A DNA stretch of 64,000 bases from Motilibacter rhizosphaerae (GTDB lineage: Bacteria; Actinomycetota; Actinomycetes; Motilibacterales; Motilibacteraceae), in the NCBI RefSeq assembly GCF_004216915.1, contig NZ_SGXD01000001.1, positions 945,013 to 1,009,012 of the forward strand, written 5' to 3'. The notes beneath the pieces are model-generated. The model saw only the letters and a list, made by a program, of their open reading frames with translations. It ran no database searches and was not told where the DNA came from. The stretch's first letter is position 1; every line of letters starts with the position of its first letter. The translations under genes and the position numbers were made by a program. Positions 29,215 to 64,000 of this stretch are shown here, piece after piece.

Positions 29215-30318
29215 GTGACGCCCGCCCCCGAGCGGCTCAGGATCGCCGTGCTCGCCTCGATCGCGCACCGCACTCCACCGCGGTCGTACGGGCCGTGGGA
29301 GCAGGTCGCTTCCACGCTAGCCGAGGGCCTCGTCGCGCTCGGCCACGACGTCACGCTCTTCGCGACCGCCGAGTCGCGGACGACGGCGCGGCTGCACGCG
29401 GTGGCGCCCCGCGGGTACGAGGAGGACCCGACCCTCGACGCGAAGGTCCACGAGTGCCTGCACGTCGCAGCGGCGTTCGAGCGTGCGGCGGAGTTCGACG
29501 TCATCTCCAACCAGTTCGACTTCCTGCCGTTGAGCTACAGCCGCCTCGTCAGGACTCCGGTCGTCACGACCGTGCACGGCTTCTCCTCCGAGCGGATCGT
29601 GCCGGTCTACCGCGAGTACGACCGCACCGCGCACTACGTCGCCATCAGCGACGCGGACCGGCACCCCGACCTCGGCTACGACGCCACGATCCACCACGGC
29701 ATCGCCCTCGAGCAGTTCAGCCTCGTGCTCGAGCCCGGGACGTACCTGCTGTTCCTCGGCCGCATCTCCCCGGACAAGGGGACGCACGCCGCGATCGAGG
29801 TGGCACGGCGTGCGGGTCTGCCCCTCGTCATCGCCGGCGTGGTGCAGGACGAGCGCTACTTCGCCGAGCGCGTCGCCCCGCTTCTCGGTCCAGGTGTGAC
29901 ATGGGTCGGGGCGGTGGAGCCCCACGAGCGCGACGCCCTGCTGGGCGGGGCGATCGCCCTCCTGCACCTCATCGCCTTCGCCGAGCCCTTCGGCCTCGCC
30001 GTCGTCGAGGCCCTGGCGACCGGGACGCCGGTCGTCGCGCGCCGGCTCGGCTCCATGCCGGAGATCATCCGCGACGGCGTCACGGGAGTCCTCGTGGACG
30101 GCGTCGACCAGGCGGTCGACGCCGTCGCGCGAGTGCCCCTGCTGCAGCGGGCAGAGTGCCGGCGCGACGTCGAGGAGCGCTTCAGCGCTGCGCGGATGGT
30201 CGCCGACTACGCACGGCTGTTCGCGGGGGTCGCCGCCGGCGCCCCCGCCGTCAGCCGCTCGAGCAGGGCGTCGAGACCGACGGTGGCGAAGCCCACGGAG
30301 CGGTCGCTCACGCCGTAG
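29215..30318 (+). CDS. Glycosyltransferase family 4
   Basis: The protein has 367 residues from GTG. The N-terminal Rossmann domain has RTPPRSYGPWEQVASTLAEGL. The C-terminal GT4 domain has LLFLGRISPDKGTHAAIEVARRAG and the nucleotide-sugar EX7E motif AFAEPFGLAVVEALATGTPVV. It retains the anomeric configuration using a nucleotide sugar. The last 112 bases overlap the 3' end of the GH130-like gene on the other strand. Confidence 0.9.
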   Translation: MTPAPERLRIAVLASIAHRTPPRSYGPWEQVASTLAEGLVALGHDVTLFATAESRTTARLHAVAPRGYEEDPTLDAKVHECLHVAAAFERAAEFDVISNQFDFLPLSYSRLVRTPVVTTVHGFSSERIVPVYREYDRTAHYVAISDADRHPDLGYDATIHHGIALEQFSLVLEPGTYLLFLGRISPDKGTHAAIEVARRAGLPLVIAGVVQDERYFAERVAPLLGPGVTWVGAVEPHERDALLGGAIALLHLIAFAEPFGLAVVEALATGTPVVARRLGSMPEIIRDGVTGVLVDGVDQAVDAVARVPLLQRAECRRDVEERFSAARMVADYARLFAGVAAGAPAVSRSSRASRPTVAKPTERSLTP

Positions 30319-34228: not shown

Positions 34229-35218
34229 GTGCGGGTCGTGGTGATCGGTGGCAGCGGCCACATCGGGAGCTACCTCGTCCCGCGGCTCGTCCGCGCCGGG
34301 CACGAGGTCGTCAGCGTCAGCCGCGGCCGCAGCACGCCGTACGTGCCGGCGCCGGAGTGGGAGCAGGTGCAGCAGGTCTTCGCGGACCGTGAGCAGGAGG
34401 ACGCCGACGGCAGCTTCGGCGGTCGCATCTCGGGCCTGCGCCCGGAGGCGGTCGTCGACCTCGTCTGCTTCACGCCGGAGTCCGCGGCGCTGCTGGTCGA
34501 CCGGCTGCGCGGAGAGGTGGGGCACCTCGTCCACTGCGGCTCGATCTGGCGCCACGGGGCGAGCCGCAAGCTCCCCATCACCGAGGACGACCCCTCGTCG
34601 GCCGGGCCGGCGTTCGGCGCGTACGGCATCGCGAAGGAGCGGATCGCCCGCCTCCTCGCAGCGGAGACGGCGGCGGGCGGGCTCGTCACCACCTCGCTGC
34701 ACCCGGGCCACATCGTCGGCCCGGGGTGGCACCCGATCGGCCCGCTCGGCAGCCTCGACCCGGGGGTCTGGCGCGCGCTCTCGGCGGGGGAGGCCCTCCG
34801 GGTCCCGGGCAGCGGGGCGGAGTCGATGCACCACGTCCACGCCGACGACGTCGCGCAGGCCTTCGAGCTCGCGCTGCTGCACCGCGAGGCCGCGGCGGGG
34901 CAGGACGTCAGCGTCGTCGCGCCGACCGCGCTCACCGTGCGGGGCTACGCCGAGGTGGCCGCGGGCTGGTTCGGCCAGCAGGCGGTCCTCGAGACCGTGT
35001 CGTGGGAGTCGTTCCGCAGCTCGACGACGCCGGAGCACGCCGAGTCCAGCTGGGGCCACCTGCACCGCAGCCACTGCTTCAGCATCGCCAAGGCGGTCGA
35101 GCGACTCGGCTACGCCCCGGCGTACGAGCCCGAGCAGGCGGTCCTCGAGTCGGTGCGCTGGCTCGTCGAGCGGGGGCGCCTCGAGGTCGCGAACCCCCTG
35201 GTCGCCGGCGCCCGCTGA
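34229..35218 (+). CDS. NAD-dependent epimerase/dehydratase (extended SDR)
   Basis: The protein has 329 residues from GTG, preceded by GGGAGG. The cofactor motif is VIGGSGHIGSYL, the catalytic region AYGIAKERIA (Tyr...Lys) and the substrate part VHADDVAQAFELALLH. It resembles nucleotide-sugar epimerases and RNA-binding CSP41-like SDRs. It is divergent from the GT/GH130 operon by about 236 bases, which hold both promoters. Confidence 0.85.
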   Translation: MRVVVIGGSGHIGSYLVPRLVRAGHEVVSVSRGRSTPYVPAPEWEQVQQVFADREQEDADGSFGGRISGLRPEAVVDLVCFTPESAALLVDRLRGEVGHLVHCGSIWRHGASRKLPITEDDPSSAGPAFGAYGIAKERIARLLAAETAAGGLVTTSLHPGHIVGPGWHPIGPLGSLDPGVWRALSAGEALRVPGSGAESMHHVHADDVAQAFELALLHREAAAGQDVSVVAPTALTVRGYAEVAAGWFGQQAVLETVSWESFRSSTTPEHAESSWGHLHRSHCFSIAKAVERLGYAPAYEPEQAVLESVRWLVERGRLEVANPLVAGAR

Positions 35219-35222
35219 CGGG

Positions 35223-36539
35223 CTACGCCCCGGGCAGGGCCGTCGCCACGCCACCCCCGGCGGCCTTCGCCCGGTAGAGCGCGGCGTCCGCCCGGGCGAC
35301 GAGCTCGGGCAGGGTCACCCGCGGCGGCGCGCCGCTCGCCGCGCCGATGCTCGCGCGCGGAGCGGCGGCGTCGGGGTGCGCGCCCGCGGGGCCACCGGCC
35401 TCGAGGGCGTCGAGCAGGCGGCGACCGGCGGCGACCGCCGCGTCGTCGTCCGCGCGGTCGAGCACGACGACGAACTCGTCGCCTCCGACCCGGGCGAGGA
35501 ACTCCCCGCTGCGCACCGAGGAGCGCAGCCGCAGAGCGACGTCGCGGAGGACCTCGTCGCCGGCCGCGTGCCCGTGGCTGTCGTTGACCTCCTTGAAGCC
35601 GTCGAGGTCGATGAAGAGCACGGCGACGGGCTCCTCGTGGCGCAGTGCGCGCGCCTCGGCCTGGCGCAGCTCCTCCAGCAGCGCGCGCCGGTTCGGCAGC
35701 CGGGTGAGCTCGTCCTCGAGGGCGGCGGCCTCGGCCGTGCTGAGCTCGGCGAGGCGCTGCGTCACGTCGGTCTGCACCCCGACGAACCGGGACACCCGGC
35801 CGTCGCTGCCGTGGACGGGGTCGATGGCGAGGTGGTTCCAGAACGGCCGCCCGTCGGCGCGGTAGTTCAGCACCTCGACCTCGACCGGCTGGCCCTCCCG
35901 CAGCGCCTCGCCGAGGGCGCGGACGACGGCGCGGTCTGTCCCGGGGCCCTGGAGGAAGCGGCAGTTGCGGCCCAGGACCTCCTCCCGGCGGTAGCCGGTG
36001 AGCCGCTCGAACTCGCCGTTGACGTAGACCACCGGGTCGTCGGGCAGCCCCGGGTCGCTGATGCAGAAGGCCGCGCGGGCGGTGTCCAGCATGCGCCGCA
36101 GCAGCGACACCTCGCGCTCGAGGCCCTCGCCCGCGAGCGCGGCCGCGGCGTACTGCAGCGCGACGTCCATGAGCATGGCGCCGGCCGCCCCACCGGTCGA
36201 GCGCACGTGCCAGACGTGGGTCGCGCCGGCCTCGAGCAGGGCGAGGTCGCCGGTGCCGTCGGGCTCGTCGGTGAGCACGATGACGAGGGGCACGGCCTGC
36301 GCCTCCCGCCACGCCGCGAGTGCCGGGTCCCCGAGCAGGCGGAGCAGCGGGAGTGGACCCCCGGCCGGGACGCCGAGGACGAGCCCGTGGACGTCCTGCC
36401 GGACGAGGAGCTCGACCAGCGCGGTCGCCCCCGATGCCGTGCCGCCGGCGAGCGCGACGACCTCGTGCCCGTGGCGCTCGAGCTCGCCGGTGACCACGGA
36501 GCGCCGCTCCTCCGCCGCGTCCTCCAGCGCGAGCCTCAC
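35223..36539 (-). CDS. LOV-GGDEF protein: blue-light-regulated diguanylate cyclase
   Basis: The protein is 438 residues from GTG 36539. Residues 1-130 form a receiver-like domain lacking a clear phospho-acceptor. Residues about 145-265 form a LOV/PAS domain with the photoactive motif GRNCRFLQGP (Cys193) and NYRADGRPFWNHLAI. Residues about 275-430 form a GGDEF domain with VGGDEF at 351-356. The inhibitory RxxD site is R-S-G-E here. Flavin-Cys adduct formation by blue light should control c-di-GMP synthesis. Upstream start choice is uncertain, as the frame is open further. Confidence 0.88.
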   Translation of the reverse strand: MRLALEDAAEERRSVVTGELERHGHEVVALAGGTASGATALVELLVRQDVHGLVLGVPAGGPLPLLRLLGDPALAAWREAQAVPLVIVLTDEPDGTGDLALLEAGATHVWHVRSTGGAAGAMLMDVALQYAAAALAGEGLEREVSLLRRMLDTARAAFCISDPGLPDDPVVYVNGEFERLTGYRREEVLGRNCRFLQGPGTDRAVVRALGEALREGQPVEVEVLNYRADGRPFWNHLAIDPVHGSDGRVSRFVGVQTDVTQRLAELSTAEAAALEDELTRLPNRRALLEELRQAEARALRHEEPVAVLFIDLDGFKEVNDSHGHAAGDEVLRDVALRLRSSVRSGEFLARVGGDEFVVVLDRADDDAAVAAGRRLLDALEAGGPAGAHPDAAAPRASIGAASGAPPRVTLPELVARADAALYRAKAAGGGVATALPGA

Positions 36540-36715
36540 CCGCGGTCGTCGCGGACCTGCATGCCCGGACCCTCCTGCCGCCCTCGCGTGGTCCGGGCCC
36601 AGCGCGCGCGACCAGGCCGCCGCCTCGGCGACGAGCTGGTCCGAGCATGCCAGGTGACCCTGCGTCGCGTACGTGCTCCCCGCAACACCAGTCGGACGAT
36701 CGGCGCACGCGGTTG

Positions 36716-36788: not shown

Positions 36789-37793
36789 ATGGGCAAGCAG
36801 GTCACGATCTACGACGTCGCACGCGAGTCCGGGGTCTCGATCTCCACGGTGTCGAACGCCCTCAACCGACCCGAGCGGGTGAGCTCCGCGACCCGCGGGC
36901 GGGTGCTGGAGGCCGCCGACCGGCTGGGCTTCGTGCCCAAGCCGGCTGCGGTCTCGCAGGCGCGGGCCGGTGCGGGGTGCATCGGGATCCTCGCGCCCTT
37001 CTCGTCGTACGCGTCGTACTACGCGCGCCTCACCGGCGCGCTGCGCGCCCTGCGCGACACCGGGCTGGAGACGCGCGTGGTCGACATCGAGTCGGCGGCG
37101 GCCGCCACGTCGCCCGTGCTCGCGGCCTCGGCGATCCGTGGCCACCTCGACGGTCTCATCGTCATGGGCGAGCGCATCGAGGACGCCGTCGAGCGCCGCC
37201 TCGCCGAGCGCGGGATGCCGACGGTGCTGGTGGACGCCGCGAGCGAGCGCTTCAGCGTCATCGTGAGCGACGACTTCCGCGGGGGTGCGCTGGCGGCGCG
37301 GCACCTGCTGGAGCTCGGCCACCGGTCCATCGGCTACCTCATCGAGCAGCAGGAGTCGGACTACGAGTCCCAGGCGCGGCAGCGGCTCGACGGCTTCCGC
37401 CACGCGCTCGAGCAGGCCGGGGGAGCGACGCTGGTCGTGCGCCCGACGGGGTCGAGCGCCGAGGAGGCGCGGGCCGCCGCCCGCGACGTGCTGGCCGGGC
37501 CGGACCGGCCCACCGCGGTGATGGCGCACTTCGACGAGCTGGCCGTGGGCGCGCTGCGGGCCGCTGCCGAGCTCTCGCTCAGCGTGCCCGGTGACGTCTC
37601 CGTCATGGGGTACGACGACGGCCCGGCCGCGGACGCCGTGGGACTGACCACCGTGCGCCAGCCCTTCGAGCAGTCCGGCGCGGCGGCCGTGGGCGTGCTC
37701 GCCGCCCGCATGGCCGACCCGGCCGCTCCGCGCACGGTCACCGTCCTCGACTGCGCCCTCGTGCCCCGGCTGACGACGGGCACCCCGCGCTGA
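36789..37793 (+). CDS. LacI-family transcriptional regulator
   Basis: The protein has 334 residues. The HTH is VTIYDVARESGVSISTVSNALNRPERVSSATRGRV with hinge helix, then a periplasmic-binding-like domain (GCIGILAPFSSYASYYARLTGAL, MAHFDELAVGALRAA, VMGYDDGPAADAVGLTTVRQP). It precedes the importer operon on the same strand, with paired candidate operators before both. The effector is probably the imported sugar. Confidence 0.93.
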   Translation: MGKQVTIYDVARESGVSISTVSNALNRPERVSSATRGRVLEAADRLGFVPKPAAVSQARAGAGCIGILAPFSSYASYYARLTGALRALRDTGLETRVVDIESAAAATSPVLAASAIRGHLDGLIVMGERIEDAVERRLAERGMPTVLVDAASERFSVIVSDDFRGGALAARHLLELGHRSIGYLIEQQESDYESQARQRLDGFRHALEQAGGATLVVRPTGSSAEEARAAARDVLAGPDRPTAVMAHFDELAVGALRAAAELSLSVPGDVSVMGYDDGPAADAVGLTTVRQPFEQSGAAAVGVLAARMADPAAPRTVTVLDCALVPRLTTGTPR

Positions 37794-37799
37794 CCGGGT

Positions 37800-37850
37800 C
37801 GAAGTGCTTTTACCGAAGGCCTTGGCAGGCCAGGGTGGCTGTGCTCTACT
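37800..37850 (+). promoter_or_regulatory. Candidate LacI operator 2 and importer promoter
   Basis: CGAAGTGCTTTTACCGAAG starts at 37800, has the same core as operator 1, and carries its CTTCGGTAAA in inverse orientation. It is followed by TTGGCA (37822) and TCTACT (37845) 17 bases apart. An operator just upstream of the -35 fits repression of the importer. Confidence 0.55.
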
Positions 37851-61234: not shown

Positions 61235-61615
61235 GTGCCGGCGGAGGCGGAGGTCCTGTCGGCGCAGTTCGCGCTCGACGTCGACGGGGTCCAGGCGATG
61301 CGGAGCATCACGGAAGCGCCCCACCTCGGCGACTACTACTGGCACCTGCCAGTCCAGACCGCCTAGGCGACGGACGACGACCCCGGCCTGGCGATCGAGG
61401 CGGTCCTCCCCTCGGATGACCTGGCCGTCCTCGCCGATCCCGAGCCACCAGAGCCGAGCCACGCGTGGCAGCAGGGTGGAAGCCGGCCGCGCTGGATTCT
61501 GTCGCCGCCCTATTCGTCCTCCCGGGCCAAGCCGGAGCGGCTTCTGGTCGGCGACGACCTGCCGGTAGACCGGGCTCGGGGGACTGCTCGTGCTCGGACG
61601 AGTGAAGCGGGGTGA
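61235..61615 (+). pseudogene. Interrupted reading frame of unknown function
   Basis: From GTG 61235 the frame reads 43 residues (AQFALDVDGVQAMRSITEAP, HLGDYYWHLPVQTA) and hits TAG at 61364. The same frame then continues open for 82 codons with protein-like composition (LAIEAVLPSDDLAVLADPEPP) to TGA at 61613. This suits a gene broken by a nonsense mutation. No family is recognised, so confidence is low. Confidence 0.35.
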
Positions 61616-61661
61616 CGTCGCGGGCAGCGGTTGCCAGGGGTGCCAGCGGGTGCGACGGCAC

Positions 61662-62150
61662 CTACGCGGGCAGCTCGACGAGTCGGAGCCAGGCGCCTGG
61701 GAGCGCTTGATCGTCAGGCAGGTCGAGCTGGACCTGCCCTGAGATGGGCAGGTGGAGGATCTGCGCCGCCCGCTTTCCCGTGCACGAGAGGGTTCCTTGG
61801 AGGAGCACCACGGGATCGCCGGTGTGCTGGTACGGGCCCTGCCTCACGTCCAGGAGTCTCCAGACCAGCGCGTGTGCGCTGGCGTCGCACACGCCGTCAA
61901 GGCGTGCTCGAGCGCCCTTGTGGGCCGCGGCATCACTTCGTGATGTCAGCGTTCCGGTCGAGGGTGAGTACATCGCCAGGGACAGCTCTCTGCGCATCAG
62001 CGGCGGCGGTGAGGGGTCTGGCCGGAGGGACGCCGTGCCGACAGTCGAAGCGCTCACGGGTACGGCATGCGGGGGATCCGAGTGCGCGCTGCAGCCAGCG
62101 ACGGCGAGCATCCCGGCGCAGATGCTCAAGACCCGCGAGCGCGTAGACAC
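61662..62150 (-). CDS. Putative lipoprotein of unknown function
   Basis: The protein has 162 residues. The lipoprotein signal is VLSICAGMLAVAGCSAH (lipobox VAGC). The mature part has two Cys (GVCDASAH, LSCTGK). It is one of three small exported proteins in this stretch and may sit on the cell surface. No family recognised. Confidence 0.65.
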   Translation of the reverse strand: MSTRSRVLSICAGMLAVAGCSAHSDPPHAVPVSASTVGTASLRPDPSPPPLMRRELSLAMYSPSTGTLTSRSDAAAHKGARARLDGVCDASAHALVWRLLDVRQGPYQHTGDPVVLLQGTLSCTGKRAAQILHLPISGQVQLDLPDDQALPGAWLRLVELPA

Positions 62151-62576
62151 CGGCGCACGCTAGCAGTCCTGTCCCCGCCTACAAGGACAAGGGCTGTGAA
62201 ATCCCTGGATCGGAGCGACGAGAAGGCTCCTCATCGGCGGCAGCGGACGTGCGCCGTCAGACGGCTAGCGCTTGACCGAGTTGGGGAGCGGCATGGCCAG
62301 GCAGGCGAGGAGTGCGAGTACGAGGACGCCTCGCGCCGAGGCTGCGACGTCACCCTTGGTCAGGCGACCCACCGTCAACGCACACCAGCGCGACCAGGTG
62401 CGTGAGGAGGACTCGCTGAGGCGTGGTCGAGCGCACGGGCGGCCGACGGTGAGGGCCGCCAGTTGGGGACGTCACGGCCGGGAAGTGCCCTCGCCGGTCG
62501 GCCTACATCGGCAGCTGCGGGCGCGAGAGCGCGCGCAGAGCGGCATGTGCGGACGTTCGAGGGGCAGGGCTGGGAG
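62151..62576. other. Intergenic stretch with one possible tiny membrane peptide
   Basis: No standard gene. On the minus strand, GTG 62372 to TAG 62265 would encode 35 residues with a hydrophobic stretch (GVLVLALLACLAMPLPN), but the start and ribosome site are weak. Other frames look like shadows. Confidence 0.3.
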
Positions 62577-63158
62577 ATGAGCGCTTGGCGTTGGCAGCCG
62601 CCGCCGGGCTGGCCGGAACCGCCCGATGGCTGGGCGCCGCCTCCAGGTTGGCGCCCAGACCCTGCGTGGCCCGCTCCGCCCGGGGGGTGGCAATGGTGGC
62701 GCCGCGACAGCGCATGGCGGGCAACTCCGCGGTGGGTGTACGTGGGCGGGCTGCTCTGGCTGGTCGGGTTAGTCCTCGCCTCCGGCGTGGCAGCACTTGG
62801 TGTCCGAACGGCGGGCTCCGCGAGCGACGTGCGCTGGGGGACAGTGACGGCGGGGGCCGCGCTCGCGCTCGGGTTGACCGTCGGGTGGGGGGCGTTGCTG
62901 GGTGCGGCCGCACGCTGGCGTGACCTGGCATGCAGCGTCGCCGCGGCGACGGCGGTGCTCATCGCGCTCTACGTCGGGGCGATGCTCTTCTGGCCGCGTG
63001 GAGACGACGTCAGCTCAGACGACGCGGCCGGCGCGGGTGTGGTGCTGCTGATCGTACCGATGGCGGTGAGCGTGGCCCTTTGCCTCGGGCTGGGTGCCGT
63101 GCCTGCCGCCCTAGTGCGACGCGGCCTCCAGCGCGGACGCGCCCGCAGGGCGGCATGA
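62577..63158 (+). CDS. Multi-pass membrane protein with Pro/Trp-rich N-terminus
   Basis: The protein has 193 residues from ATG (MSAWRWQPPPGW). Residues 6-40 are a Pro/Gly/Trp repeat (PPPGWPEPPDGWAPPPGW), similar in style to DUF2510-type cytosolic leaders. About four membrane helices follow (VGGLLWLVGLVLASGVAAL, AGAALALGLTVGWGALLG). Function unknown. Confidence 0.65.
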   Translation: MSAWRWQPPPGWPEPPDGWAPPPGWRPDPAWPAPPGGWQWWRRDSAWRATPRWVYVGGLLWLVGLVLASGVAALGVRTAGSASDVRWGTVTAGAALALGLTVGWGALLGAAARWRDLACSVAAATAVLIALYVGAMLFWPRGDDVSSDDAAGAGVVLLIVPMAVSVALCLGLGAVPAALVRRGLQRGRARRAA

Positions 63159-63171
63159 GCGGCCGTTGCTC

Positions 63172-63432
63172 CTACCGATTGCGGTGTCGTGTGTCACCCC
63201 GGAGGATTAGTTCGACCATGCGAGTCAGGGCGCCGGCGAGCAGCGCGAACATCACGGCCTGCAGCGGCGAGGTGATGCCGGTCAGATGCGCTACGGACCA
63301 CACGATGGACCCCGCGATCACGGCGCGCGCAAGTCCTCCCAGTCGGCGCAGGAGGCTGGACGACCTCGACGCTTCCGGCAGCCGGCTCATCTGCACATGC
63401 TCCCCGATGAGTCCGACCTCCGAGGGCGGCAT
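63172..63432 (-). CDS. Small membrane protein of unknown function
   Basis: The protein has up to 86 residues. Two hydrophobic segments (AVIAGSIVWSVAHLTGI, LQAVMFALLAGALTRM) are separated by a short loop. ATG 63432 is used; ATG 63390 (MSRLPEASRS) is an alternative. No family recognised. It converges on the preceding membrane protein. Confidence 0.5.
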   Translation of the reverse strand: MPPSEVGLIGEHVQMSRLPEASRSSSLLRRLGGLARAVIAGSIVWSVAHLTGITSPLQAVMFALLAGALTRMVELILRGDTRHRNR

Positions 63433-63459
63433 GCCGCACGGCGGCTACTTGTGGTCGAC

Positions 63460-63676
63460 GTACGGCTCCAGCCCGGCCAGGCTGGGGTCGAGGTGTTCGG
63501 CGGGGTCGCTCTCACAGCGGCTGCCCACGGCTGGGTTGGTGTGGCTCTCTCATGGCGTGCGTCCCGCCGGGCACCGTGACGAGGTCGTGGCTCAAGAAAG
63601 GTCTGTCCCGCTCGAAGTAGCACTGCCCCCCTCGTCGACCCGTGGTGCGTCCGGCTCTTCAGGCGAGGAGGCAGCG
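63460..63676 (+). ncRNA. Candidate bridge RNA region of IS110 left end
   Basis: IS110-group elements encode a structured bridge RNA in the non-coding end upstream of the transposase. Here this stretch is non-coding and holds a clear hairpin (CCAGCC/GGCTGG, 63468-63485). Guide loops were not identified. The call rests on position and known biology of the family. Confidence 0.3.
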
Positions 63677-64000
63677 GTGAGCAGGGTTGTCATCGGGGTG
63701 GACCCGCACAAGAGGTCCTCCACCATCGAGGTCATCGACGACGGCGAGAACGTCCTCGCCGTCGGCAGGTACGGCACCGACCGCGACGGCTACCAGCAGA
63801 TGCTCGCCGCCGGCAGAGCGTGGCCGGACCGGCTGTGGGCGGTCGAGGGCTGCCAGGGCGTGGGCCGGTACCTGGCGCAGCGGCTGGTCGCTGACGGCGA
63901 GCTGGTGGTGGATGTGCCGGCGAAGCTGTCGGCGCGGGCGCGGGTGTTCTCCACCGGCCAAGGCCGCAAGACCGACGCCGCCGACGCGCACGCTGTCGCG
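63677..64000 (+). CDS. IS110-family transposase (DEDD), N-terminal part
   Basis: GTG at 63677, with GAGGAGG upstream, gives 108 residues to the window edge. The RuvC-like DEDD domain shows Asp in VVIGVDPHKRSS, Glu in LWAVEGCQGVG and the pair of Asp in GRKTDAADAHAVA. The C-terminal Tnp_20 domain with the Ser nucleophile lies outside. It catalyses RNA-guided recombination in studied members. Confidence 0.88.
   Translation, partial: MSRVVIGVDPHKRSSTIEVIDDGENVLAVGRYGTDRDGYQQMLAAGRAWPDRLWAVEGCQGVGRYLAQRLVADGELVVDVPAKLSARARVFSTGQGRKTDAADAHAVA

Follow-up and report, generated by a model that had tools for sequence, protein, structure and literature searches.

GGDEF domains, alone or together with EAL domains, are carried by ~18% of bacterial LOV proteins (PMC4844311). 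All four characterised LOV-activated diguanylate cyclases (LadCs) are activated by light, and they are classed by the length of the linker between the LOV and GGDEF domains (PMC10396304). MsLadC and SfLadC have a 35-residue linker, GGDEF domains that are caged in the dark and >10,000-fold activation; AoLadC and DpLadC have a 21-residue linker, no compact dark state and ~15-fold activation (PMC10396304). At the I-site, RxxE is one of the replacements that relieve autoinhibition with activity maintained, and MsLadC-D221E is near wild type with slightly raised dark activity (PMC12805367). PleD, WspR and DgcR are response regulators in which a GGDEF domain is preceded by an N-terminal receiver.

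A LOV-GGDEF protein was analysed from a 64,000-nucleotide window (the whole stretch of DNA examined here) of the actinomycete Motilibacter rhizosphaerae (contig NZ_SGXD01000001.1, positions 945,013 to 1,009,012). Its best PDB match was 8c05 (E=7.7e-44, residues 139-434), named in Foldseek as the dark-state structure of MsLadC from Methylotenera sp. and ranked first there over the same residues. The two proteins share the order LOV then GGDEF and the same motifs, but MsLadC has the long, dark-caging linker, an RxxD I-site and no N-terminal domain, whereas the Motilibacter protein has a 21-residue linker, RxxE and a receiver-like N-terminus. AoLadC and DpLadC, likened here by linker length and not by sequence, differ from it in host and in lacking the added N-terminal domain. 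PleD, WspR and DgcR differ in that the Motilibacter protein has a LOV domain interposed and has neither a phospho-acceptor Asp nor the conserved Lys. The protein is thus of a kind already known and studied, and existing knowledge of the class is unchanged by it; its N-terminal domain is the one unusual part of an otherwise ordinary protein. It probably works as a soluble dimer, a short-linker LadC whose diguanylate cyclase is activated by blue light and to which a degenerate receiver has been added.

Gene and LOV domain

The complete coding sequence lies on the minus strand (36539 to 35223), begins with GTG at 36539-36537, ends with a stop at 35223 and encodes 438 aa with codon composition of the coding type. 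The coordinates and residue numbering given in the earlier note were correct, with Cys193 located in GRNCRFLQ. On inspection of the sequence, no Shine-Dalgarno motif was found for the GTG. An 8-codon ATG mini-ORF (36536..36562, minus strand) was read from the sequence upstream, with a good Shine-Dalgarno motif, AGGAGG (36576-36571), eight bases 5' of its ATG and a TGA stop that overlaps the GTG start as GTGA. One reading is that the two frames may be translationally coupled; another is that the true start lies elsewhere or that the sequence holds an error.

The LOV domain (~residues 145-262, including an A'alpha helix; 35754..36105, minus strand) was delimited by Pfam PAS_9 (E=9.1e-22, far past chance), the NCBIfam profile of YtvA-family blue-light LOV proteins, alignment to YtvA and MsLadC, and the structural model. 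The NCBIfam profile matched residues 147-270 with 144.7 bits; this falls short of its full-length cut-off, as would be expected from the different architecture. The domain was compared in one alignment with YtvA, MsLadC, two further LOV proteins from the same genome and twelve actinobacterial LOV-GGDEF proteins. Cys193 occupies the position of the adduct Cys (GXNCRFLQ motif), and the match to YtvA and MsLadC extends over NCRFLQ, both Asn positions in NYR..G.FWN and the Gln in VGVQTD that serves in signalling. In the full-length AF2 model, the LOV and GGDEF domains mostly had pLDDT >90 and a helix was placed at 261-274.

At one site the Motilibacter protein departs from these references, with Gly in place of the basic residue of YtvA (Arg) and MsLadC (Lys). 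This site presumably corresponds to AsLOV2 Arg467, a second contact to the FMN phosphate, so that FMN affinity may be lower, and confidence in flavin affinity is tempered by this putative contact site. Ala or Gly is common here among related LOV-GGDEF proteins and is found in short-linker EAL-DICT-LOV-GGDEF relatives; the substitution is therefore a trait of the group and not plainly a defect.

GGDEF domain, linker and N-terminus

The GGDEF domain (approximately 35251..35718, minus strand) was matched by Pfam at E=1.3e-40, far past chance. The GGDEF motif begins at residue 352 within an intact VGGDEF, the A-site is intact, and the GGDEF residues invariant in 24 relatives are all present, as are the metal and GTP residues DLDGFK..ND and GH..GD. 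In the C-terminal GRN motif, Arg is replaced by Gly. Motifs, Pfam matches and the PDB match together bore out the earlier proposal that a full LOV signature, GRNCRFLQ with its Cys, is fused to an intact GGDEF domain.

The I-site reads RSGE, beginning at residue 343, nine residues ahead of the GGDEF motif; RxxD is absent. An RxxD I-site is common in diguanylate cyclases and is not obligatory for activity. By motif script it is present in at least 31 of the 54 GGDEF domains of the genome, a lower bound, since the script mis-reads ~10 of the 54, among them the LOV-GGDEF protein itself. Product feedback is probably weakened by RxxE, as the earlier note had proposed and as the I-site variants of PMC12805367 would suggest by analogy. 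RxxE was also seen in another actinobacterial LOV-GGDEF protein (L225, as RAEE), which has a 60-residue linker.

Between the LOV and GGDEF domains, the linker DVTQRLAELSTAEAAALEDEL (approximately 35701..35763, minus strand) is exactly 21 residues long by the rule of PMC10396304, in which counting begins at the Asp in D(I/V)(T/S) and stops at the Leu in DxLT. This length places the protein in the short-linker LadC class, a point missed in the earlier note. The best prediction from the short linker is moderate light activation through a change of coiled-coil register, with neither caging nor a compact dark state.

The N-terminal domain (~residues 1-136; 36132..36539, minus strand) was assigned by hhalign and by strand and helix order in the AF2 model. 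No Pfam match above cut-off was obtained for these residues, and a whole-genome scan with PF00072 returned 47 receivers without this N-terminus among them. Alignment to a REC profile built from receivers of the same genome and CheY scored 25.5 over 96 columns (probability 24%); the maximum was 17.7 for 30 composition shuffles and 24.6 (next 17.2) for 113 fragments of other genes in the window. In that alignment VLGVP stands where the acceptor Asp is expected, with Gly at the position itself; VLT retains its Thr and EAGATH its AGA, and no conserved receiver Lys follows EAGATHVWHV. The full-length AF2 model shows a receiver-like alternation of strands and helices in this region, but at pLDDT 40-66. 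The model of the isolated domain was poor, at pLDDT 54.5, and Foldseek and VIA matched it to generic, non-specific alpha/beta folds. Structural alignments of the full-length protein to PleD, WspR and DgcR start at residue 1 with large rmsd because the domains are placed differently. The earlier description of a receiver-like domain without a phospho-acceptor holds for the missing Asp, and the receiver fold itself is plausible from the weak signals of hhalign and the model; the domain would be a degenerate receiver with neither phospho-acceptor Asp nor conserved Lys.

Other candidates for this region were rejected. A PF13579 match (E=0.008) was under the cut-off and was taken as chance, and assignment as a DICT domain scored 9.4 by hhalign, lower than the shuffles. 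No convincing homologue of the N-terminus was found in 393 genomes of the class; matches to the N-terminus only, at E 5e-4 to 0.01, were chance-like, and those re-scored locally were mostly partial and of low complexity.

Relatives and readings of light control

The 4.3-Mb genome carries a very large c-di-GMP network, with 54 GGDEF domains, 33 EAL domains and 4 PilZ matches beside its 47 receivers. It encodes five LOV proteins, three of them LOV-GGDEF proteins. The other two of these three are EAL-DICT-LOV-GGDEF proteins (C1:656559-657437 and C4:62883-63794, LOV-GGDEF half 45-47% identical), which differ in having EAL and DICT before LOV, whereas the N-terminus studied here is not DICT-like. 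Their domain order was taken from Pfam for C4 (L033:1549-3807, plus strand, i.e. C4 ~61575-63809) and from an EAL genome match and sequence similarity for C1 (L031/L041, C1:656559-658706). Their linkers measure 21 residues in C1 and 35 in C4; the C1 protein has YSGDEF in place of the GGDEF motif. A search of a library of papers returned no report of DICT, LOV and GGDEF in combination. The two remaining LOV proteins (L032, C3:867527-867937; L034, C1:370888-371307) have C-termini that, read by eye, resemble SpoIIE-type phosphatases, one of them with an extra ATPase-like end. In a genome_contigs scan, most of the matches were PAS-GGDEF proteins that lack the LOV motif.

At the thresholds used, searches gave no orthologue sharing this N-terminus in five genomes of the family and order (one of them a congener), in 393 genomes of the class or in 396 of the phylum. 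Other LOV-GGDEF proteins occur across the phylum, some with almost nothing N-terminal of LOV. In a 14-row tree the protein grouped with the EAL-DICT proteins with weak support (80/86), on a branch of 1.09 against a median of 0.4. That branch length, the lack of an orthologue in the five family genomes, the loss of some motif residues and the GTG without a Shine-Dalgarno motif would all suit a gene in decay. This reading is given the least credence, since the 438-aa frame is open, its codons are of the coding type and the catalytic and photochemical motifs are kept.

Under the favoured reading, a light-activated cyclase of the short-linker type, blue light would cause FMN in the LOV domain to form an adduct with Cys193, and the conserved Gln of VGVQTD would relay this to the interface between the LOV domains of the dimer. 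A register shift in the short coiled-coil linker would then let the two GGDEF domains meet, and c-di-GMP synthesis would rise moderately (on the order of 10-fold) over real dark activity, with product feedback loosened by RxxE. The receiver-like N-terminus would not be phosphorylated and would probably aid dimerisation or dock a partner. Three features weigh against this reading: Gly at the putative phosphate contact, Gly instead of Arg in the C-terminal GRN motif, and the lack, in the genomes searched, of a close orthologue by which conservation could be judged.

Light may instead have no control over the cyclase, the LOV domain being intact and the GGDEF domain either constitutively active or controlled chiefly through the N-terminal domain or a partner protein. 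Truncated LOV-GGDEF constructs with a 21-residue linker have been reported to lack light regulation (PMC10396304), the added N-terminal domain could be another input, and RxxE cuts feedback. This outcome is nevertheless considered unlikely, as two natural LadCs with the same linker length are activated by light (PMC10396304) and the LOV domain retains its complete signalling set with the Gln. Very little credence is given to an inverted switch in which blue light turns the cyclase off because the N-terminal domain reverses the register preference: register switching could in principle go both ways and the linker sequence has diverged, but light activation was the outcome in every characterised LadC (PMC10396304).

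Within the preferred reading, an orphan, non-phosphorylatable receiver placed before LOV might serve as a second input or partner dock in a light-regulated cyclase, a suggestion that is only tentative; if true, blue light and another cue would be integrated within one protein. The protein adds an actinomycete with this large network and five LOV proteins to the hosts of LOV-activated diguanylate cyclases, allows the effects of a short linker, RxxE and an added N-terminal domain on light control to be studied in a natural protein, and could be of use in optogenetics.

Gene neighbourhood

Two GT4-type glycosyltransferases, a GH130-type enzyme and an NAD-dependent epimerase lie on one side of the gene, with a LacI regulator and two ABC permeases on the other; the product encoded at 37835, probably a solute-binding protein, was unmatched in Pfam at 1e-5. 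The epimerase gene is convergent and ends at 35218, and the LacI gene is divergent and starts at 36789, so that the LOV-GGDEF gene is monocistronic. No PilZ gene was found near it, all four PilZ matches of the genome lying elsewhere. The earlier observation that the neighbours are glycan and sugar genes was correct, but the output link drawn from it was not supported: there is no common operon and no nearby PilZ, and with 54 GGDEF and 33 EAL domains in the genome adjacency is weak evidence for a c-di-GMP output. As called, one GT4 gene (29215-30318, plus strand) and the minus-strand GH130-type gene overlap convergently by ~112 bases (30207-30318).
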